DNA of 45,705 bases from positions 1-45,705 of the forward strand of contig SVQY01000014.1 in assembly GCA_015065135.1 (NCBI GenBank). The letters are read 5' to 3'. Positions 25,525-45,705 of the stretch are shown one piece after another. Under the pieces are notes generated by a model, which was not told the origin of the DNA, made no database searches, and saw only the letters and a list, made by a program, of their open reading frames with translations. Every line of letters starts with the position of its first letter. Positions within the stretch are counted from its first letter, which is position 1. This DNA is from Oscillospiraceae bacterium (GTDB lineage: Bacteria > Bacillota > Clostridia > Oscillospirales > CAG-272). Position numbers and translations under genes: made by a program.

Positions 25525-25543
25525 GTCGGGTCCTCTCCCTTCT

Positions 25544-26389: not shown

Positions 26390-26430
26390 AGGATGTTCCC
26401 CTTTCGCTTTGTGAAAGTATTAACGGGTTT

Positions 26431-26459
26431 ATCATAGCACACACGTTTTGGAAAGTCAA
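26431..26459 (-). promoter_or_regulatory. Promoter of the galactitol/tagatose operon
   Basis: Minus strand TTGACT (26459-26454), 17-bp spacer, TATGAT (26436-26431), about 40 nt before the aldolase start. Confidence 0.65.
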
Positions 26460-26513
26460 GAAATTTACCGATTTTTTTGAGAATGGCTATCTGAGCATTC
26501 CGGCTCATACGCA

Positions 26514-26543
26514 AAAGCACCTTGGCAGCTGCCAAGGTGCTTT
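26514..26543 (-). terminator. Palindromic terminator-like hairpin after the HAD gene
   Basis: A perfect 30-bp palindrome centred at 26528/26529 with half-site AAGCACCTTGGCAG, followed on the minus strand by a short T run, 3 bp past the HAD stop. The T tail is weak, so termination may be partial. Confidence 0.6.
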
Positions 26544-26546
26544 CGG

Positions 26547-27176
26547 TTAAAGCAATTCGGTAAAATCGTAAATGTAGCGATCGGTGATGCCCTTGATCTC
26601 CTCGATGTATTCTTTGGAGCTGTCGTCGTAGACACCGTAGACCTGCATCCCCGCCTTTTTGGCGGTCTGATCCGCATTGAAGTTGTCATCCAGAAAGATG
26701 ACCTCACCCACCGACACGCCGATCCGCTCTGCCGCCATATGATAGATGGCGGGGTCTGCCTTGGTGGTGCCGAAATCGTTGCAGGACCACACGTTGTCAA
26801 ACAGATCGAAGATACCAAGTCGCTTCAGGCAGGGGTCCAGGGTGTCATGAGGGCTGGCGGTCAGCACGTGCAGTCCGTTGCCGCGCGCTTTCATCTGCCG
26901 TAGCGCCTCTATAACGTGAGGCTTGGCCGGCACGCGATGGGTGTACTCTTCTACCATATAGGTGATCATGGTCGCAATGATCTCTTCTTTCGGCTTGCAA
27001 AGGCCCATGCCGATGAAGTACTCCGCCGTGCCCGGAATGCCGAGTGGCGTAATGATCTTGATGATATTTTCCGGATACGGTATGTGATTTTCCTGCAAAA
27101 TGCGCAGCATGACACCGGCATAGGTGGGCATGGAATCCACCAGTGTACCGTCAAAATCGAACAAATAATGTGTCAT
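26547..27176 (-). CDS. HAD-superfamily hydrolase
   Basis: The 209-residue protein has all four HAD motifs: DFDGTLVDS (nucleophile Asp), VLTASP, the Lys in TTKADP, and IFLDDN. The cap domain is of the phosphoglycolate-phosphatase / beta-phosphoglucomutase type. Substrate unknown; small sugar or metabolite phosphate is typical. The ribosome site is weak: an AAGGAG lies about 26 nt upstream, with a GGGGC/GCCCC-like hairpin between, so initiation may be modulated. Confidence 0.88.
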   Translation of the reverse strand: MTHYLFDFDGTLVDSMPTYAGVMLRILQENHIPYPENIIKIITPLGIPGTAEYFIGMGLCKPKEEIIATMITYMVEEYTHRVPAKPHVIEALRQMKARGNGLHVLTASPHDTLDPCLKRLGIFDLFDNVWSCNDFGTTKADPAIYHMAAERIGVSVGEVIFLDDNFNADQTAKKAGMQVYGVYDDSSKEYIEEIKGITDRYIYDFTELL

Positions 27177-27288
27177 AGGTCAGCATGGGGCAATAAGTGC
27201 CCATCTCCTTCCATTTTCTTTGCAGAACTGCCGTTTTCACGGCACGTGTGGTGGCTTTTTGAGCAGGCACCTCGCAGCAAAAGCCGTT

Positions 27289-28638
27289 TTATGCCTTCTT
27301 GACTGTACAGGTCGTCACGCCGTAGTAGGAAAAGGCGGCAAGCGCCGTTTCGTCGATCTGCTCGCCGCAGCAAAGGATGGGCACCGCAGGGGGGCAGCCC
27401 ACACCGGCGTCCGCTAACACCCGCCCCACACACGCGGCAACGGGCAGCGTTTCGCAGGGGGCGAGCATCGCCTCGCGCGGAGAGCAGATGTGCCGCGGGA
27501 TGCCGGGGCGCGGCGGTGCTTCTGTGACAGGCGTGCGCGGAGGGCTCGCCAGGAGCGCCTCCACAACGCGCTCCAATGCCGCGTCGGGCAGGGAGGGGGA
27601 GAGCATCAGCACCACAAAATCGGGGTCGGCGAACTCGCATTCCACGCCGTGCTCGCGCAGGGCATCGGCAAGCTCATTGCCGCGATAGCCGCGCTCCTTG
27701 GCGCGGATCGTCCATTTCAGCGGCTCGTTGCCGATCAGGGTGTAGCCTGCAGCCGTCAGTTGTGCGCGATAGGCGGCGAGCCGCTCGGCAAACGCCGCAT
27801 AAAGCTGCGGTCGGTCGGAGAGATAAGCGTTGGCCGCATCCAGCGATTGCAGGATCAGATAGGAGGGGCTGGTAGAGCCGAACAGGGCCATGCACTTTTT
27901 GGCGTTTGGTGCAAAAAGTGCCGCAACGGTATCGGAAATATGCAGATAAGCGCCGCCTGTCAGTACAGGCAGAGTCTTGTGCGCGGAATCGCAGCAAAGG
28001 TCCGCGCCGAGGTCGATGGGATGCAGCGACGGCTCTAAAAATTTCAGATAAGCGCCGTGGGCGTTATCCACCAGAAGATAGCTGCCGTGGGCGTGACAGA
28101 CTGCGGCGAGGCTGCGGATATCCGCCATATGTCCCAGATAATCGGGGCTGGTGATGTAGACGGCTGCCGGCGGCTCGCTCATTTCGGAAAGCGCCGTCGC
28201 CAGGCGGTCGGGCGTGACCGTGCAGGAAAGATAGCTTTCACTCGGATCGGGGCAGAGCCACTCCACCTCCAGATCCAGCAGGGCTGCCGCGGAAAGGAAT
28301 ACCTTGTGCGCGTTTCTGCCGGCCAGAATGCGTGTTTTCTCGCCCCGTTTGGGGGCGTTTTGCGCGATCAGCGCCAGCATGGCGCGAATGCAAAGCGAGG
28401 AGCCCTCGGTAGAATAAAAGGTCTTGGCGCCAAAAAGGCGAGAGGCGTTTTCCTCGCTTTCGGCAATGATGCCGTCCGCTTCAAAAAGGCTGTCCGCTCC
28501 GCGGATCTCGGTGATATCCAGCGCCTCGCAGCCCACAAGAGCGGTGCCCTTGTGACCCGGCATATGCAGGCGCGCGGTATCGCTTTTTGCATACCGTTTC
28601 ACGAAATCGCAGATCGGCGCGGTCATTTTTGCCATCAT
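27289..28638 (-). CDS. PLP-dependent Orn/Lys/Arg decarboxylase-like protein
   Basis: The 449-residue fold-type I decarboxylase lacks the N-terminal wing domain of the large enterobacterial enzymes. Motifs are RLHMPGHKGT, FYSTEGSS, LLVDNAHGAYLKF (PLP ring Asp) and DSAHKTLPVLTGGAYLH (Lys forming the Schiff base). Substrate (ornithine, lysine or arginine) cannot be decided. I place the start at 28638, where ATGA overlaps the stop of scfB by 4 bp, pointing to translational coupling with the ranthipeptide maturase. No clear ribosome site of its own is visible. Confidence 0.85.
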   Translation of the reverse strand: MMAKMTAPICDFVKRYAKSDTARLHMPGHKGTALVGCEALDITEIRGADSLFEADGIIAESEENASRLFGAKTFYSTEGSSLCIRAMLALIAQNAPKRGEKTRILAGRNAHKVFLSAAALLDLEVEWLCPDPSESYLSCTVTPDRLATALSEMSEPPAAVYITSPDYLGHMADIRSLAAVCHAHGSYLLVDNAHGAYLKFLEPSLHPIDLGADLCCDSAHKTLPVLTGGAYLHISDTVAALFAPNAKKCMALFGSTSPSYLILQSLDAANAYLSDRPQLYAAFAERLAAYRAQLTAAGYTLIGNEPLKWTIRAKERGYRGNELADALREHGVECEFADPDFVVLMLSPSLPDAALERVVEALLASPPRTPVTEAPPRPGIPRHICSPREAMLAPCETLPVAACVGRVLADAGVGCPPAVPILCCGEQIDETALAAFSYYGVTTCTVKKA

Positions 28639-30020
28639 TTGTTGTCGCCCAGCGCACGGGCGACCGCCACCATGATGGCGCACTCCATGCGCTTGCGGAA
28701 GAGCTCGCAGCCCTTCTCGTAAATACCTGTTACAGAGCCGGTGGCGTGGAAGGCGTTAGCGGCGCAGCCGCCGGAGCAATAGAGCCGTGCCCAGCACTCG
28801 CGGCACTCGGGACGGGCGTATACGTTGCAGGCGGCAAACTCGGCCCGCTTTTCGGTGTTGGAAACACCGTGGAACACGTCGCCCAGCTTGTATTCCTCCT
28901 CGCCCACGAACTGGTGGCAGGGGTAAAGATCGCCCCAGGGGGTCACCGCCATGTATTCGGTGCCCGAGCCGCAGCCCGAGATGCGCTTGTAGATGCAGGG
29001 ACCGCCCGAGAGGTCGATCATGTAATGATAGAAGGTGAAGGGCTTGCCCGCCTTATCCCGCTCCAGCATCAGCGCGGCGAGCTTTTCGTACTGCTCCTTG
29101 ACGATGACCACATCCTCGTCGGTCAGCTCGGCGGGATCCCCTGCGGCACAGACCACCGGCTCCATCGAGAGCTCGGTAAAGCCCAGATCCAGCATCACCT
29201 GAATATCCTTCAGAAAATCGGGGTTGGCGTGGGTGAAGGTGCCGCGCATATAGTAGCCCTTGCCGCCGCGGGACTCCACGAGCTTTTGGAACTTGGGCAC
29301 GATGCGGTCAAAGCTGCCGTTGCCGGCATAGTCCACGCGGAAGCGGTCGTGGATCTCCTTGCGACCGTCCAGACTCAGCACCACGTTGTGGCACTCGCGG
29401 TTGGCGAACTCTATCACATCGTCGTCGATGAGGAGACCGTTGGTGGTCAGGGTAAAGCGGAAGTTCTTGCCCTTTTCCTTTTCGATGCTGCGCGCATATG
29501 CCACCAGGTCCTTCACGACCTGAAAATTCATCAAGGGCTCGCCGCCGAAGAAGTCCACCTCCAGGTTGCGGCGCGTGCCGGAATTTTCCACCAGAAAATC
29601 CAGTGCGCGCTTACCCACCTCAAAGCTCATCACGGCGCGCTCGCCGTGATACTTGCCCTGACTGGCAAAGCAGTAGGAGCAGTTCAGATTGCAGGTGTGG
29701 GCAATGTGCAGGCAGAGCGCCTTGACCACGCCGCCTGTTTTCGCCTTCAGCTTGCCTGCCATGGGCTCAAAGGTGTCGGGCACGAACAGCTTGCCCGCCT
29801 CCTTCAAGGAGAGCACGTCGTCGTAGCATTCCTCAATGTCCGCAGCGGTGATATCCGCGCGCCCCGCGTATTTTTCCTTCATGGCGGCGATCACGCTCTC
29901 GCGGTCCTGCTGCTCAAACAGCGCGATGATATCGTAAGCGACCTCATCCACCGCGTGCACCGAGCCGGAGCAGATGTCCAGCACGATATTGTAGCCGCCC
30001 AATTTGTACTGATGTACCAT
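28635..30020 (-). CDS. scfB: SCIFF ranthipeptide radical SAM maturase
   Basis: The 461-residue radical SAM/SPASM protein has CNLNCSYC (Cys110, 114, 117) binding the SAM 4Fe-4S cluster, FGGEPLMNF, and a C-terminal SPASM Cys set (CGSG, YPCHQF, CRECWARLYCSGGC, CELF, MEC) for two auxiliary clusters. The N-terminal part is a RiPP-recognition-like domain. It is paired with the 46-residue SCIFF precursor just upstream and is expected to form Cys-Thr thioether links in it. Start ATG 30020 with AAGGAGTG. It overlaps the decarboxylase gene by 4 bp. Confidence 0.93.
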   Translation of the reverse strand: MVHQYKLGGYNIVLDICSGSVHAVDEVAYDIIALFEQQDRESVIAAMKEKYAGRADITAADIEECYDDVLSLKEAGKLFVPDTFEPMAGKLKAKTGGVVKALCLHIAHTCNLNCSYCFASQGKYHGERAVMSFEVGKRALDFLVENSGTRRNLEVDFFGGEPLMNFQVVKDLVAYARSIEKEKGKNFRFTLTTNGLLIDDDVIEFANRECHNVVLSLDGRKEIHDRFRVDYAGNGSFDRIVPKFQKLVESRGGKGYYMRGTFTHANPDFLKDIQVMLDLGFTELSMEPVVCAAGDPAELTDEDVVIVKEQYEKLAALMLERDKAGKPFTFYHYMIDLSGGPCIYKRISGCGSGTEYMAVTPWGDLYPCHQFVGEEEYKLGDVFHGVSNTEKRAEFAACNVYARPECRECWARLYCSGGCAANAFHATGSVTGIYEKGCELFRKRMECAIMVAVARALGDNK

Positions 30021-30037
30021 AATTTCACTCCTTGCGC

Positions 30038-30075
30038 AAAAATGCCGCCACGGCACCGTGGCGCCCTGGCGGCAT
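30038..30075 (-). terminator. Intra-operon terminator/attenuator between scfA and scfB
   Basis: ATGCCGCCA (30042-30050) pairs with TGGCGGCAT (30067-30075), with internal GC-rich pairing, followed by TTTTT on the minus strand. It sits between the precursor and maturase genes, and would let the peptide be made in excess over the enzyme. Confidence 0.7.
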
Positions 30076-30090
30076 CTCGCTTTTTTCAGA

Positions 30091-30231
30091 TTACTTGCTC
30101 TCGCACTGCTGGTTGGCGATGCCACAGCTGGTCTTGCAAGCGGACTGGCAAGAGGTCTGGCACTCACCGCAGCCGCCATTCTTGGCGCTGTCGCACAGAT
30201 TACGGGTTTCCAAAGTCTGAATATGCTTCAT
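30091..30231 (-). CDS. scfA: SCIFF (six cysteines in forty-five) ranthipeptide precursor
   Basis: The 46-residue peptide has the typical start MKHIQTLETRNL, then the Cys-rich core GCGECQTSCQSACKTSC and the ending NQQCESK. Seven Cys are present (13, 21, 24, 28, 32, 36, 43); the last six form the family core and Cys13 looks additional. The radical SAM enzyme encoded next modifies it by thioether crosslinks. SCIFF is nearly universal in Clostridia; its role is not settled. ATG 30231 follows AAGGAGG, and a strong promoter lies just upstream. Confidence 0.95.
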   Translation of the reverse strand: MKHIQTLETRNLCDSAKNGGCGECQTSCQSACKTSCGIANQQCESK

Positions 30232-30265
30232 GATGAAATTCCTCCTTGGGATATTTGTTGTAAAG

Positions 30266-30294
30266 ATTATATCACTTTTTGATCGCAAAGTCAA
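30266..30294 (-). promoter_or_regulatory. Strong promoter of the SCIFF locus
   Basis: Minus strand TTGACT (30294-30289), 17-bp spacer, TATAAT (30271-30266), about 35 nt before the scfA start. Confidence 0.8.
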
Positions 30295-31535: not shown

Positions 31536-31773
31536 TAACCATCCGCAATTTGGCAATTTCGTGTGGAGTGGCGTACTGCTTTTTGGCACAGATAGCGGGG
31601 CGGGGGACGGTCAACCCCTTACCTTACCGCAGGGCGCAGCATAGCGTTCTGCATCTATCTTTACTGCGCGTGCGTATACGCATATAAACGCGTGCAAAAG
31701 GCGGTATCCCGCTCCATCGGGATCACTGAATCGGGTTACTCAAATTCACGATAAATTTTGAGGAGGAAAACAA
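31536..31773 (+). promoter_or_regulatory. Long 5' leader of the giant repeat protein gene
   Basis: About 238 nt separate the predicted transcription start from the ATG. It contains a possible hairpin near 31707-31725 (ATCCCG/CGGGAT) and repeats of GCGTGC/GCGTAT around 31665-31695. The ribosome site GAGGAGG ends eight bases before the ATG. I recognise no known riboswitch class; a regulatory leader is inferred from length only. Confidence 0.4.
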
Positions 31774-34700
31774 ATGAAGACAAGCAAACTTGGGAAGATC
31801 CTTATAGTTGCGCTGTTCCTCATGCTGTTCACGTTGGTATTGACCGTAGCAACGAGTGCAGCAACCGTCACTGTCGCCGCTGATGGCGACCTGTCCACCG
31901 CCATTTCCGGCGCGGCAGCAGGTGACGTGATCGAGCTTAGCGGCGGCACCTATACAGAAGCCGACCCCATCACCATTGACAAGAACCTGACCATTCAGGG
32001 TACGGGTACCGTCAATGGCGGCGCACCCATCTTTAACATTGCCGAGGGCGTAACCGTTACGTTCGGCGGCTCTGTAAAGTACGTGGGTACGGGCATCGGT
32101 GTTTCCATTCAGGGAACCAACACCAATGTCACCTTCAAGGACAGTGTGTGCTTTGAAACGACAAACCGCGTATATCAGGACTTGAATAACGCCTATACTT
32201 CCACCGTTACGGTGCAGGACAACGTTCTTTTTAAGAGCGGCTCCTATGCCATCGACTTTGACGGCAATGCCACCACCACCGGCACCCGCGCAAAGAAAAC
32301 GGTTGTCGTAACCGGTGCCACCTTTAACTGTCAGCACGGTATCGTGTTCAATGCGGACTATATCGAGGCATCCGCAACCGTTACCAACGTCACGATGGTC
32401 AACAAGAACACCTCCTTCTACGCAACCAACAACAACGGTATCACCGTAATCACCGTTAACGGCGGCTCTTATACCTCCACCAGTAAGGATAAGATCGCAA
32501 TGCTCGGCGGAAACGGCTCCTCTACCACGACGGCAAGCTTTACCGACGTGACCTTTACCACCAACGCGATGGCTTCTAATGCAGGTGCATTGACCGCGGA
32601 GGGTGGCTCTAAGGTCACGATGACCTTGAAGAATGCCACCCTTAACTTCTCCCAGACTGCAATTCTGCTTTGCAACGGCTCTACGCTGAACGCCACGCTG
32701 GAGAACGTGACCGCCACCGGTCGTGACATTGTGAACGAGAACGGCAAGAACGGTAATGCAACCATTACCCTGAAGGGCAATTCCGCCTACACCTGCTCCA
32801 CAGGTATCTTCTCCGACGGTACTGCAGAGGGCTCTTCTATCGTGCTGAACGTAGAGAGCGGCGTTAAGATCACCTCTTACGCCCTTTGCTCCGACACCAA
32901 CCTGGCCAAGCTGGCCATGGCCGTTCCCTCTACCCTGAACGTCAAGGGTGGATCGGTTGAGCTGGAGATGTACAGTGCCAGACACAACAACGTGACCGTA
33001 AGCGTAACCGGCGGCACGCTGACCGTGAACGGCATAGATGCCTCCGTGCTGGACAACGCCTCTGCCGTTGCCAAGATCGGTGATACCCCCTACGACACGC
33101 TGGAGGCAGCCATTGCCGCAGCCGCCCCAGGCGACACCATCACCATTCTGAAGAACTGCACCATTTCCACCGCGATCACGCTGAACAAGAAGCTGACCTT
33201 TACCGGTGAGAACGTGATCGTTTCCCAGAACAGCGTAAAGCTGACGCTGGCTGACGGTGCGGACATCACCGTGGACGGCAATATCGCCTGGCTGGACTTT
33301 GCCACCGTCTCCGAGAACACCGGTACGGCAAAGTTTGTGATCAACAGCGGTTACTTTACCAATGAATATGCCGATATGTTCAACGCCGGCGAGCAGGCGA
33401 CCCTGAACGTGACCATCAACAACGGCACCTTCGTTCTGGGTAACGACCTGTGCGTGCGTCACGACAACGTGTCCGGCGGTACAACGAACTATGCTACCAA
33501 TTTCACCATCAATGACGGTACCTTTAAGATCGCCAACAACACGGTGTTCCGTCAGGGTGATAGCAATGTTCAGAATGACACCAAGTTCAATATCTATATC
33601 AACGGCGGCAGCTTCACCTGGCATACCGAGATAACGGATGACGCTGATACCGGTACAAACGCCTTGTACTTTGTTCACATCGGCGACTGGCAGTGCCAGA
33701 CCGTGGTAAACATCAAGAATGCTACCTTTAACGTTCCTTATACCGGAATGGCAAAGGATGTTTATTACTTCTTCTATCTGCAGGCCTACAAGCTGGATGC
33801 CACGCTGGAAAACTGCACCGTTACCGGCTTTGATTACATGATGCGCGTAAACCGCGGTAACAAGGTATCCAAGCTGACCATCAAGAGCGGTACTTACAAC
33901 GTCGGTACGATCCTTGCCGTTTACGGCTCCAACCCCGGCTCGTCCAACAATAGCGAGGTCATCGACGGCACGCTGAACATCAGCGGCGGTACCTTTACCG
34001 TTTCCGAGTGCATTGTTTACCTGGCAAATACCGGTGCAACGAAGTCGGGTGATGCCTACGTTACCATCACCGGTGGTACCTTCAACACCATGAAGAACTT
34101 TGCGCAGGGCGGTACCTTTATGGACGGCTGGCCCTGTACGCTGAAGGTCGTCGCTTCCAACGTGACCATCAACACCACCGGCGCGTTCTTTGGTATGTCC
34201 AATGATACGGATCTGAAGCTGGATGTCAGCTTTACGAACTGCACGCTGACCTCGAACGGCCGTTTCATGTCCGGCGACATTCATAGCATCACTGCCGTGT
34301 TTGACAACACCAACGTCACCGCAGTGGAGCGCTTGATCAACCTCACCGGCGCTTCTGCGAATGCAAGCACCATCACCATCACCGGCGGTACCTTTACCAT
34401 CAAGCCCTTGGCAAACGCTTCTGCCCATGCGCTGATGTTCTATGTCAACACCGCCAGCGGCTCCACCACTCTGACCATCAACAGCGGTACCTTTATTGCC
34501 GACACCAACGGTGCCGGCGAGTGGGATGGCTTGTTTATCCTGAACAACGGCACGGTGAACGCGACCATCAAGGACGGTACCTTCAACTCTGCACAGATCG
34601 TGCAGTTCGGCTCTGCAGGCACACTAAACCTTACCATTGAAAAAGGTAGCTTTACCGGTACCAACCTGTTCCAGAGCCTGAAGGGCGGTACCGCTAACAT

Positions 34701-37700
34701 CACCGTTAAGGGCGGTACCTTCAATGCTACCCGCATCGTGGACGGCATTAAGGGCACCACCAACGTGACCATTGAGGGCGGCACCTTCACCTCCACCGAA
34801 AACCTGATCAATACCGTTTACGGTAACACCCTGAGCCTGACGGTGAAGGGTGGCACCTACACCGCAGGTAACTACTTCCTGCACGCTCCCACCACCGGTG
34901 CGGACGGCAACCCCAAGTGGAGCGGCGCAACCGTAACCGTTAACGTCAGCGGTTCTCCCGAGATCACCGCAACCAACCATATCTTCTGCTTCTACAACAA
35001 CGCTATCGTCAACCTGACCGTGGGCGGCGGTACCTACACCACCACCGAATACGTGGTGCAGTCCAACGGCGCCCGGATGGTCGCCACCTGGAATAACGGT
35101 ACCGTTTCTGGCGCGAAGCGCTTTATGAACACCCTGTGGGGCGAGAACGCCAAGTTTGTGACCGACCCCCTGGGCAAGGTGACCAACGCGGCAATGATCG
35201 TGACCGTCAACGGCGGTGACATCTCCGTGACCGAGCGCGCCTTCTCCGTGACCGACCGCGGTCGCACCCTGTTCCGCATCAACGGCGGTAACATTTCCTC
35301 CTCCGATTACCTGTTCTACTGCAGCCGCAGCGGCAGCAACGAAAGCTATCTTGACGCAGAGATCACCGGCGGTACGCTGACCTGCACCAAGAGTGACGGC
35401 AACAACGGCGCATTCTTTGCCTGCTACAAGATGACCGCTGCCGTGACGGGCGGTACGATCAACGCAGAAAAGATCACCGTATTCGGCGGCTCCTCCAACG
35501 TGTACTTTGACGTGGTCGTTTCCGGCGGTAAGATCAACGCCATGAACCTGATCAACATCAACGGCACGGGTCACGTGGACGTTACCGTATCGGATAACGC
35601 AGACATCGCGCTGACCAAGTCTGTTTACGCAGACTCCAACAACGATGCCTCCGAGCAGAGGTTCAACATGACCGGCGGTAAGGTCACCACCCCCTGCCTC
35701 ATGTCCTACACCAGCTTCTGCAACACCACCGAGACCAGCATCACCGGCGGTACGCTGATCCTGAACGACAACGATATGAGCCCGAGTAAGTTCGCGAGCG
35801 AGGCCGTTGCCAAGGTTGGTGAGACCACCTATAACTCTCTGGCAGAGGCCATTGCGGCAGCACCCGCAGGCGCTACCGTGACCCTGCTGAAGAACGTGAT
35901 GATCAATGAGTTCATCACCGTTGACAAGAGCCTCACCATCACCGGCGGTGCAGAGGGCAACCGCATCACCGTATTCGGCACCAAGCCCGGCTACGAGTTC
36001 TATAACGGTGCTGCGCACAGTGCTTTCTCTACCTTTATATTAAAGGACGGTGTGACCCTGACCCTTGAGGGCTACGTGGATTACTACGAGTGCGGCGTTA
36101 CCGCCAACCACGTCACCGCCACCCTGAACCTGAAGGGCGACATCTCCTTCACCAACAACGGCGGTGCCGTTGTGGCTTACGCTAACGCCGAGGGCACGCC
36201 CGACGGCAGCAAGTACACCATGACCGTCAACATTTACAGCGGTACCTACACCAGCAACGGCAACCTGTTCGTCAGCGGCGACAAGATCGAGGGCGACAAG
36301 GGCAAAACCCAGTTCAAGATCAACGTCTACGGCGGCACCTTCCATGCAGGCGGCACCGCGTTCGTTTCCAACGACTGGCAGGCGTATATGTACGTTGTTA
36401 TCGACGCAGGTACCTTCACCGGCGGCACCAATCTGGTTATCAACAACGCCAGTAACGTATACGTTACCCTGAACGGCGGTACCTACAGCGGCTTCACCAA
36501 TCTGATCAATGCGGCTCGTTGTGATACCGAGCTGACCGTTCCCGCAAGCTCCACCGCAGTGGTCAACGTCAAAACGTTGCTGTCTGCCGCCTCCAGCGAT
36601 AACGCTCAGAACTACGGCAATCTGACTGCCAACATTGCAGGCGGTACCTACACGCTCAGCAGCCATATCGCTTACGTAGCAAACAATGCAAAGGGCGATA
36701 CCTCCAAGCTGACTCTGACCATCACCGGCGGTACCTTTAAGGTAAGCGGCTATGCTGTCAACCAGGTCAGCGGTACCTCCACCATCGTGATCAAGGGTAA
36801 TACCTCCATTACCGGTACCACCGCCGACAACGGCGAGGGCATTGTGGTCAAGGGCGGTACGACCAATATCACCATCGGCTCTGCCGAGGGCGGCGATAAC
36901 GTGGTATTCAACGTAAAATGGCGTCTGTTCTGGTTCGACGGCGTTGCTGACACCGACATTCACACCGATGCCACCCTGGTTGTTTACAGCGGTACCTTTA
37001 CCTCTACCACCAACTTCATCTACTACAGCGAGCAGGCAGGCGATCTTGACGTGACCGTCAAGAAGGCCACCATCAACGTCGGCGACTACGGCTTTGCGCT
37101 GTACTCCAAGAATGCTTCCAAGACCAAGATCACGGTTGAAAGCATGACGCTGACCGCGCTTTGCGGCTTCCGTGCTTTCCATTGCTCTCCCGAGATCCTG
37201 ATCGACTATGCCGAGATCACCGCGACCGGCTCTGCCGGCAACAAGAGCGAGTGCTTCTTCATCGACAACTCTTGCGCCACTGCCAATGTGGTCGTGAAGG
37301 CGGGTATCCTGAAGACCTCCAACGGCGGCCGTATGATCTACGGTAACGCCAAGAAGGGCACTTACACCTTTGGCGTTAAGGGCGAGACCGACCACAGCAA
37401 GCTGAAGGTCGACACCACCAACGTGCAGAACTTCGCTTTCCATGCTGCTGCTGACGTTACCTTTAACGTTTACAGCGGTACCTATACCGTACAGTCCAAC
37501 GCGCTGATCGATGTGAACACCGATGCAAAGGGTACCATCACCCTGCATGACGGTATCTTTACCGACCACAGCCAGAACCACTTCCTCATCGACTTCAGCG
37601 GTAGCGGCGCAGCGTCTCCCTCTCATATGGATATCGTTGTAAACGGCGGTACCTACACCACCGGCAACGACTTTATCTACTATGCACACGCCAATGAGAG

Positions 37701-40700
37701 CGGTGGTGCCTCCATTACCATCAATGGCGGTACTGTGAACTTCACCAACACCGGCAAGGGCAATGATACCGGCAGACACGTTGTGTACGTCAACGGTACC
37801 GGCACCAATATCTCCTACGTGGACGTGACCATCACCGGCGGTACCTTCAACGGCGCTTGGCAGCTGATCCGTCTGGACCAGGCTATTTCCAAGGTCGTGA
37901 TCAGCGGCGGTACGGCTACGCTGACCTCCCCCAACGGTAAGAACGAGGATATTGCAGCTTCCCAGGCGGCATACGATGCAGCCGTGGCTGCCGGCAAGAC
38001 CGGATCTGCCCTTCCCGCAGTCCTTACCGGCAACGACGTCAATAACGACGCTTACATCCTCTACCTGTCCGGCAACAAGTGCAAGCTGCTGGAGGGCTCT
38101 ACGATCAGCGGCGGTAACTACACCGTGACCCTGATCGACACCAACACCGGTGCCATCGGCGGTAACTCGGGTGGCGTTCCCGCTAACCTGAAGATCACCG
38201 GCGGTACGCTGAACTGCACCAACGGACCTCTCTTTGGTTGGTACACCAACTGGACGGTGACCATCTCCGGCGGTGACATTACCTGTAAGTGGTTGATCAA
38301 CGTCAATGGCGGCTCCTGCGTGGAGAATATCACCCTGAAGGACGGCGCCAACGTGACCTGCACCGACTGCGTTGCCACCGACGGCGGCGCGGGCTCCAGG
38401 ATCCACATCCAGATGGATGGCGGTGAGCTGAATACGGCCGGCGGCTGGGTCACCGGCGTGCCTTTCGCTGCAACCTTCACCGCACAGGTCACCGGCGGCA
38501 CCTATAACGGCGCTGCATGGGTGGCAAACGAGCAGGGCGTGGTCGTAAACGGTACGACCTATTATACCGACCTGCAAACGGCTATTAATGAGGCCAATGA
38601 CGGCGATACCCTGACCATTGTGGGCGGTATCACCATCACCGAAACCATCAATATTAATAAGAGCCTGACCATCAACGGCGGCACTGCGCAGCAGCCCATT
38701 CTGGTCTTCCACGCAAATTACGACACCAGCAAGGTCAACGGCGCTTACGACACCTTCCGCATCGCGGCTGACAAGAGCGTGACCTTTGCAGGCTACATTA
38801 CCTATGCCGGTTGCGGCATTCAGGTGGACTCCGGCTCTACCGAGGCGGGCACAACGGTTACCTTTAAGGATGGCGTAGTCTTTGATAACGGCACCCGCTC
38901 TCACGTGCTGACCAACACCGCTACCGCGGGCAACGTCACCGTGAACGTGCAGGACAATGCACACCTGATCGGTGCCTATGCCATCGCCTTTGACCACAAC
39001 ACCAGCAAGATCGCCGGTAATAAGTACGTCAACGTGACCGGCGGTACCATCACCGCAAACCACGCTGTGGTGTTCAACACCGACAGCATCGTGGGTCATC
39101 TGTACGTGGAGAACGGTACCTTTGTTGTCAACAACAGCATGGCCTACTTCACCACCCAGTCGGCGGGCAACACCGTGGTCATTGAGAATGCTGACGTGAC
39201 CTCCAAGTCTCAGCTGATCTACGTTTCCAACCCCGACGGCGTTGCGGGCGGCACTGTGACCGCTACCATCAACGATGGTACCTTCGTAACCTCCGGCACC
39301 GGCTCTCTGTTTAACTCCGCAGGCTGCGGCGGCTCCGGCGCTAACATAAACGTCTTTACTGTGAACATCTACGGCGGCAGCTTTACCAACACCTCCGAGA
39401 GCGGCAGCTACAATATGTTCTACGCCACCGACGCCAACGGCGGTCTGAAGGTGAATATCTACGGCGGTACCATTACCGCAGCGGGTGCAGGCACCCACAC
39501 CTTCGCGCGCAACTGGGCTGACGATATGGTCATTAACGTCTACGGCGGTAAGATCAGCGGCTTCACCTATTTCGTTGCAGGCGCACGCCGTACCACCAAC
39601 GTCCTGATCGACAGCTATAAGGATAAGGACGGCAACGTTCTGGCAACGCCCGAGATCTCGGCGACCTACGTCTTCTACGGCAAGTACGACTACACGGCCT
39701 CCGGCAACTCCGCAGGCGATAACATCTTCATGAACGTTACCGTGAACGCCGGCACCATTACCGCTACCGAGTCGGTGTTCTACACCGATAACAGCACCCG
39801 CGTTGCCACCAACACCTATACGGTGAATGGCGGTACGTTCAACGGCAAGAACCTGCTCAATATGGTCAGCGGTACCACTACCATGACCGTGAACGGCGGC
39901 ACCTTTACCGCCGGCGAGAATGCCTTCCGGCTTGTCGACGGCTCTGCCGCGCTGACTGTCAGCGGCGGCAGCTATACCGTAACCAGCCACTTCATCCATC
40001 AGTCCGAGAGCTTTGGCGGTACCTTGTCCATCACCGTGGGCGCGGCAACGATCACTGCCGAGTACGGCATCGGTCTGTACTCCAAGGCTGAGGGCGCCGA
40101 GGTCGAGGTTGAGATCAACGGCATGACTCTGACCGCCTCCAAGACAGGCATCCGCGCTTACAACCTGGATGAGCTCACCATCACCGTTGAGACCGCGACC
40201 ATTACCTCCAAGGGTAACGCTTACAGCAATGCAGAGGTCTTCTTCATCGATACCTCTGTTGCAGTTGCAACCGTTACCGTTAAGGCCGGCACCTACAAGT
40301 CTATCGGCAGCAACTATGCTCGCGTCTTCTACGGTCTTGCCATGGATAGCACCTACATCTTTGGCAAAGAGGGTGAGACCGACAACAGCAAGCTGACTAT
40401 GGAGGGCACCGGCTACCAGGTCTTCTGCTTCCATACGAAGGGCATGTATTTTGACCTTACCGTCTACTCCGGCACCTACACGGTAACCGGTAACAGCAAT
40501 ATCATCGACATCAACGATAAGGTTAACGGCGAGATCAAGATCCACGGCGGTAGCTTCAGCAACACCACCGGCGGTAACGCCATCGACCTTGCCGGCAACG
40601 GCAGTGGTGTGTCCTGCGTTGACGTCACCGTTACCGGCGGTACCTTCAACGTCAAGGGCCACTTCCTGGTCTACTCCATGGCCAGCGGTGTTGCCAACAT

Positions 40701-43700
40701 CTCCGGCGGCACGATCACCGCAGGCAACTATGGTATCGCGCTTGGCGCAGGTCCCATCTCCATCTCCCCCTCCATTACCGATAAGATCACCGTGCGTGAG
40801 GGTGTTGAGGCTCTGCCCGAGGTCATCGTAAACCTCAGCGGCAGCGTATCCATCACCGCTGTGAACCGCGCGATCTCGGTGGTCAGCAGCATCAGCACGC
40901 TGGTCAACATCAGCGGCGGTACCTACACCACCACTGCTAGCGGCGGTATACTGATCTACCGCTCCAACGACTACAATAACTCGAACATCGCTGATGACGT
41001 AGAAACAACCGATGAATTCTCGGTGTTCAATATCTCGGGCGGTACCTTCAATGCTCAGTGCGAAAATATGTTCGGCTTGGGCAACTTCGCCTTCGATAAG
41101 ACCTACACCGTCTTCAACATTTCCGGCGGTAGCTTCAACCAGCAGAAGGCAAGCGGCAACGCTTACTTCTTCCAGAACTGGGACTGGAACGGCAACGCCA
41201 TCATCAGCATTACCGGCGGTACCTTTACCGGCACCGCGGCGGCTACCACCTATGGCTTCAAGAATGCCGCTGACCTGATGGATATCACCATCAGCGGCAA
41301 CACGACCTTTACGGGTGTGGATCACTTCGTATGGGCTGACCGCGGCACCACCAACGTGACGATCGGTAAGGATGCAAACGGCAAGGCCCCCAGCATTACG
41401 GCAACCGGTGCGGTATTCTATAATTACGTTTCAAACGAGTGGAATTCCGCTACGCTGAACGCCACCGTGACCGACGGTACCTTCTCCTGCGCACAGCTCC
41501 TGCTGTCCCAGAAGGTCAAGATGAACGCCTTCGCACACCTGACCGTGACCGGCGGTACCTACACCGTGACCGGTGACTTCATCACCTTCAACAACGCCAG
41601 CGGTATCGTCAATCTCAGCGATATCACCGTAAGCGGCTGCACCAACGGCTTCGTGTTCACGGGCGCGGCTCCCACGATCTCCTCCAAGATCACCGATGCC
41701 GACAAGGTACAGGTTTCCACCTCTCCCGCACTCAACGAGAAGCCCGACGTGATCGTGAACCTTTCCGGCAGCTTCTCTCTGACCACCTCCGGCTATGCCT
41801 TTACTGCAAACCAGGGTACAAGTGCGGCATCCGACGGCGGCATCAGCACGCTGGTCAACATCACGGGCAACGGCGTCAGCCTGACCTCCACCCAGGCGCT
41901 CTTCCACAGAGCGGGTGACACCCAGAACACCTGGTCGGTCTACAACATCGCGGGCGGTACCTTCAGGACCGATGCCGAGATCATGCTGGCAAGAGACCTG
42001 CTGACCAAGAATCACTTTACGGTGATGAACATCTCCGGCGGTAGCTTCACCGCAGGCGGTGCCAACCTGTTCCAGCAGACCTCTGCCGAGGGTGACAAGT
42101 CCTACGCCAACATCAACATTTCCGGCGGTAGCTTCGCCTCCACCAAGTCCGACAGCAAGGTTACCATCTTCAGCAACGGCGACTGGCAGGGCACGATGAA
42201 CCTGAACATCACTGGCGGTACCTTCACCTCCGTGGACAACAAGGTGAACCAATTCGTCTACAACAATGCTCAGTATATGAACGTGACCTTCACCGGTACT
42301 TCTCTCTCCTTCTCGCTCCATGATTCCAACAGCGCTCTGTTCTATCATGGACGTGTGGACAGCAATCTGACCATTGACGTCAACGGCGGCTCTCTCACCT
42401 GCCTCAACGGTCCTTTGTTTGGTGTCTGCGGTAACGTGACTGCCAACATCAAGGGTGGTGAGCACACCGCTACGTATCTGCTCAACGAGAACTCCGCCAA
42501 CGCGCATCAGGTGGTGGCCAACATCTATGACGGTGCAAAGGTTACCATCACCAACGCACTGATCACCGACGGCACCGCACCTGCCGCCACCGATACCACC
42601 AGCCACGTGACGGTGAATATCTACGGCGGCGACATCACGGCTCCTCACTACACCACCGGCGCGACCATGAACGTCCGTTGCTATGTCAAGTTCCACGGCG
42701 ACTGCATCTACAACGGTGAGGCTATCTCCCTGGGCGACGGCCTGATCCTGCTGAACGGCTCTGAGTACGTCACGCTTGAGGCTGCTCTGGCAGACGCCGT
42801 AGACGGCGACGTGCTGACCCTGACCAAGAGCTTCGGTATCGTTTCCACTATCATCAACAAGAGCGTTACCATTACCGGTAACGACGGCGTGGCCGTACTG
42901 GCCAAGGGCGGCACCGCCTTCCTGACCGTTACGAACAACGCCAGCGTCACCTTCACCGGTAACGTGACCTTCATGCAGGTCTCTATCGTAGGCGAGGGCG
43001 GCACCACCGTGACCCTGACCGGTAACGTGGCCTTCACCAACGACAGAGGCAGTGATCCCGTCTACCAGACCGCAGGCACCGGTCTCGTGACCCTGAACGT
43101 GCAGGAGAACGCATCTCTGGCAGGCTTCCGTACGATCAGCATTCTGAACGGTGTAGCCGCTGACGTGAACATCACCGGCGGTACTGTTACCGGCGTGAGC
43201 GGCGCTGCGATCTACATCGCCAACGAGTACGTGGCTGAAAACGACAACGTGATCGACATCTACATCAAGGATGCCACCGTCACCGGTGCGTTCATCACCC
43301 ACTCCGAGCTGTACGCCTCCAAGTCCAAGATCACGGTAGAGGGCGATGCATACATCTACTCCACCGATCATTCCTTCTACTATAACACCACCGGCGTTAC
43401 GGTGGGCGACGTCACCACTCCCGCTTACCACAATACCGAGATCGTGATCAATGGCGGTACCCTCAATATCGCCGACACCTCCAGGCATATCATTGATATG
43501 AACGAAGGCGTCATCAGCAAGATCACCATCAACGGCGGTGAATTCAACGCCGACAAGGTAGCAAGTGCTTACATCATCGACCTGGCTGCCGGTTGTAATG
43601 CGGAGATCACCATCACCGGCGGTACGGTACACGATGCCAAGTACCTGATGAACTTCTGGAATTCCACCGTGGATCTGACCATCACCGGCGGTACCTTCAA

Positions 43701-45687
43701 CACGCACGAGCGCTTCGTGTCGACAACCGGCGGCGGTCAGATGGATGCTGTCATTTCCGGCTGTACTGTTAACCTGTCTGATAATGGCAACGGCGGTCAC
43801 GCTTTGATGTTCTACGTCAATGACGCGACTGTTGCCAATATCACCATCAACAGTGGTGTGTTCAACAACACCTCCACCGAGATGGATGAGCACAATGCCA
43901 TCTTTGAGACCAACAGTGCCAGCGGCAATGCAGCTGTTCTGAACGTAACGCTGAACGGCGGTACCTTCAACACGCACAACTTCATCTGGGCGTTCGGCGG
44001 TCAGATCGTCGTTAAGGCGAACAATGCCTCCATCAACTCGGTGAACTACACCGTGAACAGCGTGTTCTTTGTGAACAGCGACGGCCACAAGGTCTACGGC
44101 TCGCTGGCTTCCGCTGCTGCTCTGGCTCCTGCCGGCACGACCATCGTGATCCCCACCAATATCAATGTGGGCGGCAGCACGGCTTCTATCAACAAGAACC
44201 TGACCTTTACGGGTGACGGCGTTACCGTTAACGGCACCGCGGCGATCTTCAAGATCACCGGCGCAGCAACTCTTACCTTCGAGGGTAGTGTTTACTACAA
44301 GACAGGTTCTTACATCGTCCGTATCGACAATGCCGAGACTCCCTTCGAGGCAACCGTTCACTTCAAGGGCGGTCGCTTTGAGAACACCAAGAGCGACGGC
44401 GGCGGCGAGACCAAGACCATTGTTTCGGACTACGCACCCAACAACACCACTCACCTCATCGTTGAGGATGGCGTGACCATGATCTGTAAGGGCTGGGGCC
44501 TGCACTTTGAGGGCACCCATGCTGCCGATCAGAATGGCTACAAGACCATCACCATGAACGGTGGCTCTCTGACCGGTTCTCACGGCTTTGTGATCCGTGC
44601 CGGTGGCGTGGACTTCAAGTTCACGGTCAACGGCGGCTCGATTGAGGTTGGCAACGACCTGTTCTACATCGAGAACGACTACTACAAGACCGACGCACAG
44701 GAGAACGTGGGCGAGATCGTGATCAAGGGCGGTATCCTTACCGCAGGCACCAACGTCTTGCTGATCAAGGATGCTGCGCATCCCGACATCAACATCTCCG
44801 GCGGTACCTTCCACGCACCCGATCTGTTCGAGGCTGAAGGCAACACCGTAACCACGATGACCGTTACCGGCGGCGAGTACAACGTCACCACCTTTGCTAC
44901 GCTGGCCAATACGTCTGCCGAAAGCAAACTGACGCTGACCGCAACCGGCGCGACCATCTCCACCACCGGCGCATTCTTTGCTACCAAGGGTGGCGCTAAG
45001 TGCGTGCTGGATTGCACCTTCACCGACTGTGAGCTGTCTACTGCCGCACGCTTTATCAGCAGCGATGCAAAGCAGATGACCTTCAACTTCAAGGATACCA
45101 ACCTGTCTGCCGTTGAGCGTATGTTCAACGTGACCGGCGCCGGCAACACCGCTGACGTGACTGTTGACGGCGGTACGCTGACCATCTCTCCTGCAAGCGC
45201 AGGCGGCCACTCCCTGATGTTCTACTCCAACAGCGCAGCTCCCCTGACCGTTACCATCAAGGACGGTACCTTCGTCAACACCTCTACGGCTACCGGCTCT
45301 CACATCGCGTTCTTTGACGTTGCCAACAACACGGCAAACAGCCTGATCGTGACCATTGAGAAGGGTACCTTTACGGGCACCCGTCTGGCTTATGCCGAGA
45401 AGGGTCTGATGGACGTTACCATCAAGGACGGTACCTTTAACACCACCGAGGTCCTGTACCTGCTGGCCGGCGGCAATGCCGAGCTGGATATCCAGGGCGG
45501 TACCTTCAACTGCGGCACGCTGGTGAACGCACCCAAGAACAGCAGCGCAGCCGCAACCGTTACCGTCAGCGGCACCCCCGTGGTAACCGCTGCCTCCAGC
45601 GTATTCAACATTCGCGAGGGCAACACCGTTACCCTGAACGTGAGCGGCGGTACCTATACTGCTCCTTACGCGATCCTGGTGGCTTAA
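31774..45687 (+). CDS. Giant secreted repeat protein, predicted right-handed beta-helix, 3' end probably truncated
   Basis: 4637 codons are visible. A signal peptide (Lys-rich start, core ILIVALFLMLFTLVLTVA, cleavage likely near ATSA) is followed only by beta-helix repeats. Rungs of about 22-30 residues end in ITGGTF, VNGGTY or SGGSF. Six modules start with a head of the type VAKVGETTYNSLAEAIAAA, then GDTxTLL, then KSLTITGG, at about 31860, 33067, 35806, 38540, 42740 and 44065. The rungs lack Cys-rich or catalytic patterns. No LPXTG, SLH or other anchor is seen in the part present. Likely a cell-surface or shed adhesin, or a polysaccharide-binding fibre; function unknown. The TAA at 45685 lies in a perfect inverted repeat ending at the window's last base, so the true C-terminus is probably missing. 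Confidence 0.88.
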   Translation: MKTSKLGKILIVALFLMLFTLVLTVATSAATVTVAADGDLSTAISGAAAGDVIELSGGTYTEADPITIDKNLTIQGTGTVNGGAPIFNIAEGVTVTFGGSVKYVGTGIGVSIQGTNTNVTFKDSVCFETTNRVYQDLNNAYTSTVTVQDNVLFKSGSYAIDFDGNATTTGTRAKKTVVVTGATFNCQHGIVFNADYIEASATVTNVTMVNKNTSFYATNNNGITVITVNGGSYTSTSKDKIAMLGGNGSSTTTASFTDVTFTTNAMASNAGALTAEGGSKVTMTLKNATLNFSQTAILLCNGSTLNATLENVTATGRDIVNENGKNGNATITLKGNSAYTCSTGIFSDGTAEGSSIVLNVESGVKITSYALCSDTNLAKLAMAVPSTLNVKGGSVELEMYSARHNNVTVSVTGGTLTVNGIDASVLDNASAVAKIGDTPYDTLEAAIAAAAPGDTITILKNCTISTAITLNKKLTFTGENVIVSQNSVKLTLADGADITVDGNIAWLDFATVSENTGTAKFVINSGYFTNEYADMFNAGEQATLNVTINNGTFVLGNDLCVRHDNVSGGTTNYATNFTINDGTFKIANNTVFRQGDSNVQNDTKFNIYINGGSFTWHTEITDDADTGTNALYFVHIGDWQCQTVVNIKNATFNVPYTGMAKDVYYFFYLQAYKLDATLENCTVTGFDYMMRVNRGNKVSKLTIKSGTYNVGTILAVYGSNPGSSNNSEVIDGTLNISGGTFTVSECIVYLANTGATKSGDAYVTITGGTFNTMKNFAQGGTFMDGWPCTLKVVASNVTINTTGAFFGMSNDTDLKLDVSFTNCTLTSNGRFMSGDIHSITAVFDNTNVTAVERLINLTGASANASTITITGGTFTIKPLANASAHALMFYVNTASGSTTLTINSGTFIADTNGAGEWDGLFILNNGTVNATIKDGTFNSAQIVQFGSAGTLNLTIEKGSFTGTNLFQSLKGGTANITVKGGTFNATRIVDGIKGTTNVTIEGGTFTSTENLINTVYGNTLSLTVKGGTYTAGNYFLHAPTTGADGNPKWSGATVTVNVSGSPEITATNHIFCFYNNAIVNLTVGGGTYTTTEYVVQSNGARMVATWNNGTVSGAKRFMNTLWGENAKFVTDPLGKVTNAAMIVTVNGGDISVTERAFSVTDRGRTLFRINGGNISSSDYLFYCSRSGSNESYLDAEITGGTLTCTKSDGNNGAFFACYKMTAAVTGGTINAEKITVFGGSSNVYFDVVVSGGKINAMNLININGTGHVDVTVSDNADIALTKSVYADSNNDASEQRFNMTGGKVTTPCLMSYTSFCNTTETSITGGTLILNDNDMSPSKFASEAVAKVGETTYNSLAEAIAAAPAGATVTLLKNVMINEFITVDKSLTITGGAEGNRITVFGTKPGYEFYNGAAHSAFSTFILKDGVTLTLEGYVDYYECGVTANHVTATLNLKGDISFTNNGGAVVAYANAEGTPDGSKYTMTVNIYSGTYTSNGNLFVSGDKIEGDKGKTQFKINVYGGTFHAGGTAFVSNDWQAYMYVVIDAGTFTGGTNLVINNASNVYVTLNGGTYSGFTNLINAARCDTELTVPASSTAVVNVKTLLSAASSDNAQNYGNLTANIAGGTYTLSSHIAYVANNAKGDTSKLTLTITGGTFKVSGYAVNQVSGTSTIVIKGNTSITGTTADNGEGIVVKGGTTNITIGSAEGGDNVVFNVKWRLFWFDGVADTDIHTDATLVVYSGTFTSTTNFIYYSEQAGDLDVTVKKATINVGDYGFALYSKNASKTKITVESMTLTALCGFRAFHCSPEILIDYAEITATGSAGNKSECFFIDNSCATANVVVKAGILKTSNGGRMIYGNAKKGTYTFGVKGETDHSKLKVDTTNVQNFAFHAAADVTFNVYSGTYTVQSNALIDVNTDAKGTITLHDGIFTDHSQNHFLIDFSGSGAASPSHMDIVVNGGTYTTGNDFIYYAHANESGGASITINGGTVNFTNTGKGNDTGRHVVYVNGTGTNISYVDVTITGGTFNGAWQLIRLDQAISKVVISGGTATLTSPNGKNEDIAASQAAYDAAVAAGKTGSALPAVLTGNDVNNDAYILYLSGNKCKLLEGSTISGGNYTVTLIDTNTGAIGGNSGGVPANLKITGGTLNCTNGPLFGWYTNWTVTISGGDITCKWLINVNGGSCVENITLKDGANVTCTDCVATDGGAGSRIHIQMDGGELNTAGGWVTGVPFAATFTAQVTGGTYNGAAWVANEQGVVVNGTTYYTDLQTAINEANDGDTLTIVGGITITETININKSLTINGGTAQQPILVFHANYDTSKVNGAYDTFRIAADKSVTFAGYITYAGCGIQVDSGSTEAGTTVTFKDGVVFDNGTRSHVLTNTATAGNVTVNVQDNAHLIGAYAIAFDHNTSKIAGNKYVNVTGGTITANHAVVFNTDSIVGHLYVENGTFVVNNSMAYFTTQSAGNTVVIENADVTSKSQLIYVSNPDGVAGGTVTATINDGTFVTSGTGSLFNSAGCGGSGANINVFTVNIYGGSFTNTSESGSYNMFYATDANGGLKVNIYGGTITAAGAGTHTFARNWADDMVINVYGGKISGFTYFVAGARRTTNVLIDSYKDKDGNVLATPEISATYVFYGKYDYTASGNSAGDNIFMNVTVNAGTITATESVFYTDNSTRVATNTYTVNGGTFNGKNLLNMVSGTTTMTVNGGTFTAGENAFRLVDGSAALTVSGGSYTVTSHFIHQSESFGGTLSITVGAATITAEYGIGLYSKAEGAEVEVEINGMTLTASKTGIRAYNLDELTITVETATITSKGNAYSNAEVFFIDTSVAVATVTVKAGTYKSIGSNYARVFYGLAMDSTYIFGKEGETDNSKLTMEGTGYQVFCFHTKGMYFDLTVYSGTYTVTGNSNIIDINDKVNGEIKIHGGSFSNTTGGNAIDLAGNGSGVSCVDVTVTGGTFNVKGHFLVYSMASGVANISGGTITAGNYGIALGAGPISISPSITDKITVREGVEALPEVIVNLSGSVSITAVNRAISVVSSISTLVNISGGTYTTTASGGILIYRSNDYNNSNIADDVETTDEFSVFNISGGTFNAQCENMFGLGNFAFDKTYTVFNISGGSFNQQKASGNAYFFQNWDWNGNAIISITGGTFTGTAAATTYGFKNAADLMDITISGNTTFTGVDHFVWADRGTTNVTIGKDANGKAPSITATGAVFYNYVSNEWNSATLNATVTDGTFSCAQLLLSQKVKMNAFAHLTVTGGTYTVTGDFITFNNASGIVNLSDITVSGCTNGFVFTGAAPTISSKITDADKVQVSTSPALNEKPDVIVNLSGSFSLTTSGYAFTANQGTSAASDGGISTLVNITGNGVSLTSTQALFHRAGDTQNTWSVYNIAGGTFRTDAEIMLARDLLTKNHFTVMNISGGSFTAGGANLFQQTSAEGDKSYANINISGGSFASTKSDSKVTIFSNGDWQGTMNLNITGGTFTSVDNKVNQFVYNNAQYMNVTFTGTSLSFSLHDSNSALFYHGRVDSNLTIDVNGGSLTCLNGPLFGVCGNVTANIKGGEHTATYLLNENSANAHQVVANIYDGAKVTITNALITDGTAPAATDTTSHVTVNIYGGDITAPHYTTGATMNVRCYVKFHGDCIYNGEAISLGDGLILLNGSEYVTLEAALADAVDGDVLTLTKSFGIVSTIINKSVTITGNDGVAVLAKGGTAFLTVTNNASVTFTGNVTFMQVSIVGEGGTTVTLTGNVAFTNDRGSDPVYQTAGTGLVTLNVQENASLAGFRTISILNGVAADVNITGGTVTGVSGAAIYIANEYVAENDNVIDIYIKDATVTGAFITHSELYASKSKITVEGDAYIYSTDHSFYYNTTGVTVGDVTTPAYHNTEIVINGGTLNIADTSRHIIDMNEGVISKITINGGEFNADKVASAYIIDLAAGCNAEITITGGTVHDAKYLMNFWNSTVDLTITGGTFNTHERFVSTTGGGQMDAVISGCTVNLSDNGNGGHALMFYVNDATVANITINSGVFNNTSTEMDEHNAIFETNSASGNAAVLNVTLNGGTFNTHNFIWAFGGQIVVKANNASINSVNYTVNSVFFVNSDGHKVYGSLASAAALAPAGTTIVIPTNINVGGSTASINKNLTFTGDGVTVNGTAAIFKITGAATLTFEGSVYYKTGSYIVRIDNAETPFEATVHFKGGRFENTKSDGGGETKTIVSDYAPNNTTHLIVEDGVTMICKGWGLHFEGTHAADQNGYKTITMNGGSLTGSHGFVIRAGGVDFKFTVNGGSIEVGNDLFYIENDYYKTDAQENVGEIVIKGGILTAGTNVLLIKDAAHPDINISGGTFHAPDLFEAEGNTVTTMTVTGGEYNVTTFATLANTSAESKLTLTATGATISTTGAFFATKGGAKCVLDCTFTDCELSTAARFISSDAKQMTFNFKDTNLSAVERMFNVTGAGNTADVTVDGGTLTISPASAGGHSLMFYSNSAAPLTVTIKDGTFVNTSTATGSHIAFFDVANNTANSLIVTIEKGTFTGTRLAYAEKGLMDVTIKDGTFNTTEVLYLLAGGNAELDIQGGTFNCGTLVNAPKNSSAAATVTVSGTPVVTAASSVFNIREGNTVTLNVSGGTYTAPYAILVA
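34140..35060 (+). repeat. Module 2 block with a counterpart at 44930-45684
   Basis: Module 2 and module 6 run in parallel: VTINTTGAFFGM against ATISTTGAFFAT, then NTNVTAVERLINLTGA against DTNLSAVERMFNVTGA, ALMFYVNTASG against SLMFYSNSAAP, and TLNLTIEKGSFTGTNL against SLIVTIEKGTFTGTRL. Module 2 goes on for about 740 bp past the point where module 6 stops, which argues that module 6 is cut short. Confidence 0.75.
36970..37800 (+). repeat. Duplicated beta-helix block, copy A (module 3)
   Basis: Shares with 39950-40690 the order ALYSKN/GLYSKA, MTLTA, CFFIDNSCATANVVVKAG against VFFIDTSVAVATVTVKAG, KGETDHSKLKV against EGETDNSKLTM, NVYSGTYTV against TVYSGTYTV, then the rung TLHDGIF against IHGGSF. 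Amino-acid similarity is clear but not close to identity, so the duplication is old. Confidence 0.75.
39950..40690 (+). repeat. Duplicated beta-helix block, copy B (module 4)
   Basis: Counterpart of 36970-37800 as described there; about 90 bp shorter, mostly in the last rungs. Confidence 0.75.
40750..42350 (+). repeat. Tandem internal duplication within module 4
   Basis: The unit at about 40750-41460 recurs at about 41665-42350. Both have a PSITDK/SSKITDA start, then PEVIVNLSGSVSIT against PDVIVNLSGSFSLT, ISTLVNISGG against ISTLVNITGN, SVFNISGGTF against SVYNIAGGTF, TVFNISGGSF against TVMNISGGSF, and WNGNAIISITGGTF against WQGTMNLNITGGTF. It explains why module 4 (about 4.2 kb) is the longest. 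Confidence 0.75.
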
Positions 45688-45705
45688 GGAGCAGTATAGG
45701 TACCG
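45648..45705. repeat. Perfect 21-bp inverted repeat at the very end of the window
   Basis: Bases 45648-45668 are the exact reverse complement of 45685-45705, with a 16-base loop between. The left arm is ordinary repeat coding sequence (GGTACCTATACTGCTCC); the right arm supplies the TAA stop and ends at the final base. There is no T run, so it does not look like a terminator; a fold-back assembly or amplification artefact is more likely. Confidence 0.85.

Follow-up and report, generated by a model that had tools for sequence, protein, structure and literature searches.

Several described systems resemble parts of a giant gene found at 31774..45687 (+) of contig SVQY01000014.1 from an Oscillospiraceae bacterium (assembly GCA_015065135.1). 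The window, as used below, is the whole stretch of DNA analysed, that is, this entire contig (C55 of its genome) of 45705 bases. The gut-methanogen adhesin-like proteins (PMC11532034) have several right-handed beta-helix domains in one surface protein, seven of them in YP_001273761, and the available part of that source considers it unlikely that they degrade polysaccharides directly. They are archaeal, whereas the present protein combines eight beta-helix modules, each opened by a characteristic head, with an esterase and an unnamed recurrent domain designated LRF. The proteins Giant1-5 of Apilactobacillus kunkeei (PMC12863079) are likewise secreted, reach 3000-8000 residues, contain beta-solenoid domains (Giant1-4) and show the intragenic recombination that is suggested here. 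However, as far as the accessible part of that description goes, their single solenoid lies at the N-terminus and leads into a rod made of alpha-helical repeats, with an SH3b-like C-terminal domain in Apilactobacillus, and no esterase is named. The SASA/CE6 family (PF03629; AT4G34215, 2apj; the putative acetylxylan esterase 1zmb; NanS, 3pt5) shares with our protein a Pfam match, the motifs of Blocks I, III and V and the fold predicted for a relative. According to the portion of PMC9487903 at hand, the majority of SASA proteins lack additional domains, and glycosyl hydrolase domains occur in a small minority; here the domain lies near the C-terminus of a fibre of roughly 5800 residues, behind the LRF. 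The carbohydrate-binding beta-helix family of Cthe_2159 (PF14262) displays a weak match, best over residues 866-1008, but membership was rejected at 22.6 bits against a gathering cut-off of 25.8. Among the titles and abstract openings listed from open-access literature, none describes a giant combining a beta-helix with SASA; one listed paper, on alginate enzymes (PMC11381880), contains both terms.

We propose, with a probability of about 0.6, that the gene encodes a glycan-binding fibre of the cell surface or matrix, of about 5785 residues, which would present an O-acetylesterase. The predicted order is a signal peptide, seven headed beta-helix modules, the LRF, a SASA/CE6-type O-acetylesterase and a short eighth headed helix. 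This architecture is continuous in two species, the esterase is assigned by family and motifs, and the helix fold is predicted for one modelled stretch. The proposal further supposes that the rod binds glycans, that the esterase acts on a substrate held by it, and that the protein stays attached to the cell or to the matrix, perhaps via the LRF. The function of giant beta-helix proteins of gut bacteria is often left blank; in the present case, the missing end of the protein offers a testable activity, O-deacetylation.

Continuation of the reading frame on a second contig

The window ends where it does because contig C55 ends there. Its last bases contain three features:

45648..45668 (+), first arm of an inverted repeat (read in the sequence, with exact counts of both arms)
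45685..45705 (-), fold-back second arm of 21 bp that holds a false stop (perfect reverse complement of 45648-45668; contradicted by contig C9)
45561..45686 (+), identical over all 126 bp to the beginning (first 126 bases) of contig C9, which belongs to the window's own genome, G000 (sequence match)

Past the overlap, the frame on C9 is open to base 3568 and adds 1148 residues; window and C9 joined give a protein of about 5785 residues. The stop at 45687 is not real, because it sits in the fold-back arm and C9 reads on from an exact overlap. That the protein truly ends at this stop, which is after all present in the assembled window, and that C9 is a separate gene or the copy of another strain, is hardly credible given the fold-back and the overlap. 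Moreover, the ortholog in a second species (G017) passes the point matching the window's break in one frame of 4901 residues that runs from its start. This ortholog is itself split over contigs C64 and C79, at another point than the window protein, and the overlap is likewise exactly 126 bp. The equality of the two overlaps suggests that they reflect the k-mer length of the assembler. At the start of C79 in the direction of the gene (the last bases of L069), nine unmatched bases, TTCCGATCT, resemble the end of an Illumina adapter. The copies of both species are thus broken at contig ends overlapping by exactly 126 bp, which amounts to a truncation route for giant genes. Because both broke in this way, the annotated C-termini of giants in assemblies need checking.

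The predicted C-terminal esterase

The C9 part of the protein contains the following features, numbered in the C9 frame:

Residue 91, head 7 (head profile), followed by helix
Residues 508-649, LRF domain of roughly 143 residues
Residues 674-955, SASA domain (PF03629; Pfam E 2.9e-13, 50.4 bits against a cut-off of 24.8)
Residue 982, head 8 (head profile), followed by a short helix to the protein end

The SASA domain displays GQSN at position 680, QGE at 834 (preceded by Met, not His) and DHSHW at 935; the Gln-Ser of Block I, the QGE of Block III and the DxxH of Block V are present. In the part of PMC9487903 available, SASA enzymes are set apart by a Gln beside the catalytic Ser and by the motif HQGE. 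An alignment was made with nine of the 12 relatives first taken (three were dropped, one of them for a stop in the match), and the columns Gln-Ser-Asn, QGE, Asp and His are invariant in all nine; the C9 copy is outside the nine and was aligned with two of them. The SASA domain predicted for the relative L074 is confident (most blocks near 90), and its best structural matches are solved SASA enzymes of the SGNH fold. On these motifs and on its family match, the C9 domain is a predicted SASA/CE6-type carbohydrate O-acetylesterase. A search of the C9 part against the PDB gave three matches (E 0.46 to 0.88), all to a human-type kinase. In another genus, a relative (G135) contains two heads, the LRF, SASA and a second GDSL esterase within 1628 residues.

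The beta-helix modules

Six of the eight heads of the whole protein lie inside the window, at residues 35, 435, 1349, 2259, 3661 and 4103, with domain E-values from 7e-13 to 6e-21. These values are optimistic, because the head profile was trained on these very heads; its best match on reversed sequences reached 6.5e-7. Proteins of other genomes also match the profile. The modules in the window, with their head E-values and their identity to the ortholog in the second species, are:

31864..33054 (+), beta-helix module 1, head at residue 35 (E 6.8e-13; 49-54% identity to ortholog module 1)
33055..35796 (+), beta-helix module 2, head at residue 435 (E 6.3e-21; 33-41% identity)
35797..38526 (+), beta-helix module 3, head at residue 1349 (E 1.5e-19; without one-to-one ortholog partner)
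38527..42729 (+), beta-helix module 4, head at residue 2259 (E 7.7e-18; 80% identity over 1405 columns; the most conserved helix module)
42730..44064 (+), beta-helix module 5, head at residue 3661 (E 2.8e-16; 75% identity; modelled with the start of module 6)
44065..45684 (+), beta-helix module 6, head at residue 4103 (E 2.6e-16; cut by the contig end and continued in C9)

A stretch of 600 residues, composed of module 5 and the start of module 6 and covering one module junction, is predicted as a right-handed parallel beta-helix. Both modelled heads display a short predicted alpha-helix: the first, at model residues 16-22, is confident, and the second, at 459-465, has block means of 62 and 77. 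The six heads outside the model are known by the sequence profile alone. Weak autocorrelation peaks (0.05) were detected for threonine and glycine at lags 26 and 25, and a lag of 25-26 residues is a usual rung length of a beta-helix. Profile and model together support a secreted giant of concatenated, separately headed beta-helix modules.

The structural matches of the model are adhesins, lyases, epimerases and tailspikes, with pertactin, UpaB, SRRP and PfbA among the best; the structure matches also show the fold to be common to polygalacturonase, PL6 lyases, AlgE epimerases and inulin lyases. On that ground the helices could themselves be catalytic, as polysaccharide lyase, glycoside hydrolase or epimerase, which would make the protein a multi-enzyme chain. 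We judge this very unlikely, since the Pfam scan of the window protein detected no pectate-lyase or GH28 family up to E 0.1, but three weak matches (Cthe_2159, DUF6748 and GH32N), all under their cut-offs, and the NCBIfam scan gave nothing. A known carbohydrate-binding family for the helices was rejected as well, the Pfam matches being all sub-threshold. The sequence search of the window protein against the PDB returned no match up to E 0.1.

Modules 2 and 3 are of similar length (914 and 910 aa). They align with about 26% identity over 999-1000 columns and with a score of 518, against at most 290 in block shuffles (n=20); they are related, because this score exceeds all 20 shuffles. The score between modules 2 and 4 (371) is barely above that of the shuffles (at most 357), and module 3 aligns with a higher score to module 4 than to module 2. 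A recent duplication of modules 2 and 3 was rejected on this last observation and on the 26% identity, and to judge from these alignments the two are old, diverged relatives.

The window had previously been interpreted from its letters alone, and this sequence-only reading stands for the helices: one secreted frame of 4637 residues with six headed modules (on which reading frame, signal-like start and head profile agree), complete helices in concatenation (separately headed by profile, one junction modelled), a predicted helix core (the 600 modelled residues) and a length of about 2.73 kb for both modules 2 and 3. It had also asked whether modules 2 and 3 align end to end; a relationship above shuffles is found, but with an identity of only about 26%.

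Conservation and gene order

The second species has the same architecture, with eight heads in each protein and one module per species without a one-to-one partner. In local alignments, the identities are 49% for module 1, 33% for module 2, 80% for module 4, 75% for module 5, 30% for module 6, 59% for module 7, 85% for the LRF, 75% for SASA and 43% for module 8, module 3 having no partner; global alignments give equal or higher identities. The synonymous divergence (dS) differs among modules and domains, from 0.37 to 1.20, and poorly aligned columns inflate it. Given this inflation, the spread does no more than suggest an exchange of modules by recombination. At the level of the sequences, the pattern would fit either a replacement of modules or unequal divergence along the exposed rod, the enzyme end being conserved.

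The gene block at 27287-30294 of the window adjoins the 5' end of the giant gene in both genomes, and the gene beyond the 3' end in C9 also adjoins the 3' end in the second species. The gene order differs between the species (window 15046-30294 compared with L018 and L069), which suggests that the segment with the giant gene is inverted between the two genomes. A second giant is present in the second species (L070:1470-17132, contig C57), as a single frame of 5221 residues; ten heads are detected in it at E 0.01, and its LRF stands 85 residues before the end.

Proposed function

If all rungs of 25-35 residues stack at 0.48 nm, simple arithmetic gives the rod a length of the order of 70-95 nm. 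Such a seven-module rod would be long, stiff and multi-site, and might bind an extended O-acetylated polysaccharide of the plant cell wall or of mucin. The rod would keep the esterase beside its substrate, from which the enzyme would strip O-acetyl groups and so open the polymer to glycoside hydrolases, with the LRF as a candidate for keeping the protein at the cell or within the matrix. In the accessible part of PMC9487903, acetylxylan esterases of the SASA family from a rumen bacterium are described as acting with a xylanase. The genome under study holds one GH10-family match.

Alternatively, the protein may be a passive adhesive or matrix fibre, in which the helices stick cells to fibre, to mucus or to one another; the esterase would then be a minor passenger, or serve only to tune or release the attachment. 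Adhesins (pertactin, UpaB, SRRP and PfbA) are indeed among the best structural matches, the helix makes up most of the protein, and several modules diverge strongly between the two species, as exposed adhesins often do. However, the SASA signature motifs are kept, the esterase is among the better conserved parts, and SASA with the LRF also occurs in the shorter protein of another genus, together with a second GDSL esterase. We therefore consider a passive fibre possible but rather unlikely.

Several observations weigh against the fibre with an active esterase that we prefer. With matches spanning adhesins to tailspikes, the helix fold says little about the ligand. The genome also holds three sialidase-type BNR_2 matches; because of these and of the GH10 match, xylan and sialic acid are both possible substrates. 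The N-terminal 1343 residues matched only their own genome and that of the second species among 59 genomes (2/59, E 1e-10), so that the giant gene is accessory and sporadic. At the same threshold, the C9 query matched 25 of 196 genomes of the family (the second species was outside this sample and was searched separately), and among the matches listed from other genomes only that of G135 spans both LRF and SASA, a combination that is thus rare. Finally, simple patterns detected no LPXTG-like, SLH-like or dockerin-like sequence in the window or in the C9 part, and Pfam lists none. Since no anchor pattern was found, attachment to the cell is putative, and the protein may just be released.

The sequence-only reading had rightly taken the C-terminus to be missing from the window, as the 1148 residues on C9 confirm, but the anchor domain it would have sought there is not borne out by these patterns. 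Its statement that there is no enzyme motif holds for the window and fails for the whole protein, in view of the SASA score and motifs of C9. A known catalytic role among homologues, which it had named as evidence that would tell against it, exists in part, because the continuation carries a SASA esterase. The adhesive or glycan-binding role that it put forward would be plausible, and the interpretation as a whole is partly supported.

The LRF domain

The LRF corresponds to no family or structure recognised in searches of Pfam, NCBIfam and the PDB, no literature search having been made. Among 19 aligned members, Pfam families matched at most one and NCBIfam families at most two, with best E-values of 0.0006 and 0.0047. 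Cut-offs are known for the copy of the present protein only, whose sole Pfam/NCBIfam match is under cut-off (20.2 against 27). The LRF profile matched no PDB chain up to E 1. In the model m4b48d191e6af, the LRF half was based on two rows only and has a pLDDT (predicted local distance difference test) mostly below 50, too low for its fold to be interpreted. At E 1e-6, 33 of the 196 family genomes searched contain the LRF, with as many as 16 matches in a single genome; the query alignment was built from family genomes, several of them among the 196. In the phylum-wide sample it was detected in one of 299 genomes, that of the present protein. None of 13 pattern matches in viral contigs was confirmed as an LRF relative.

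We have read 42 frames with an LRF, in regions chosen by hand from the search lists and not at random; seven were dropped as cut or duplicate. All 35 complete frames have a signal-like start by a home-made rule, and 16 contain at least one head. The LRF lies at most 130 residues from the C-terminus in 19 of the 35 and further in for the other 16. An enzyme domain scores above the Pfam cut-off in 4 of 13 LRF proteins (SASA with GDSL; GDSL; endonuclease/exonuclease/phosphatase; metallo-beta-lactamase superfamily). The remaining nine have none above cut-off, one of them showing a heparinase-type match below it.

A tentative and, on balance, doubtful interpretation is that the LRF is an undescribed lineage-restricted domain that would dock or retain secreted giants and esterases at the cell surface, substituting for sortase, SLH or dockerin attachment. 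In its favour are the spread in the family compared with the single genome in the phylum-wide sample, the signal-like start of all 35 complete frames and the position near the C-terminus in 19 of them. The 16 frames in which it lies further in count against a cell-surface retention domain, and because of them a carbohydrate-binding or spacer role is equally open. If retention were true, no kind of LRF cargo encountered here would be larger than the present protein, a fibre with eight heads that would bind glycans and carry a deacetylase. As an unnamed recurrent domain, the LRF also gives a way into many further secreted giants of this bacterial family. In G034 (contig C28, 108000-140000; L175, L176), eight LRF matches form a tandem array on one strand, with complete frames of about 990-1415 residues.

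Reading frame, expression signals and upstream gene

The giant gene is read in the window as a single frame of 4637 codons with an ATG start, preceded and opened by two features:

31760..31766 (+), ribosome-binding site GAGGAGG, read in the sequence seven bases ahead of the start
31774..31863 (+), signal peptide, residues 1-30 (basic start, then a hydrophobic run; positive by the home-made rule)

This rule also passes 20 of 239 control frames, many of which are not genes. The signal peptide is 87% identical to that of the ortholog. Opposite the giant gene, the minus strand contains long open reading frames at 36040-41325 (1761 codons) and 41431-45705 (1290 or more codons), which are probably shadows of its codon use; the plus strand is favoured because of the signal peptide, the ribosome-binding site, the heads and the conservation. 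Upstream of the giant gene, the window contains a gene for a GH2-family glycoside hydrolase (9559-12375, +) with several supporting Pfam domains.
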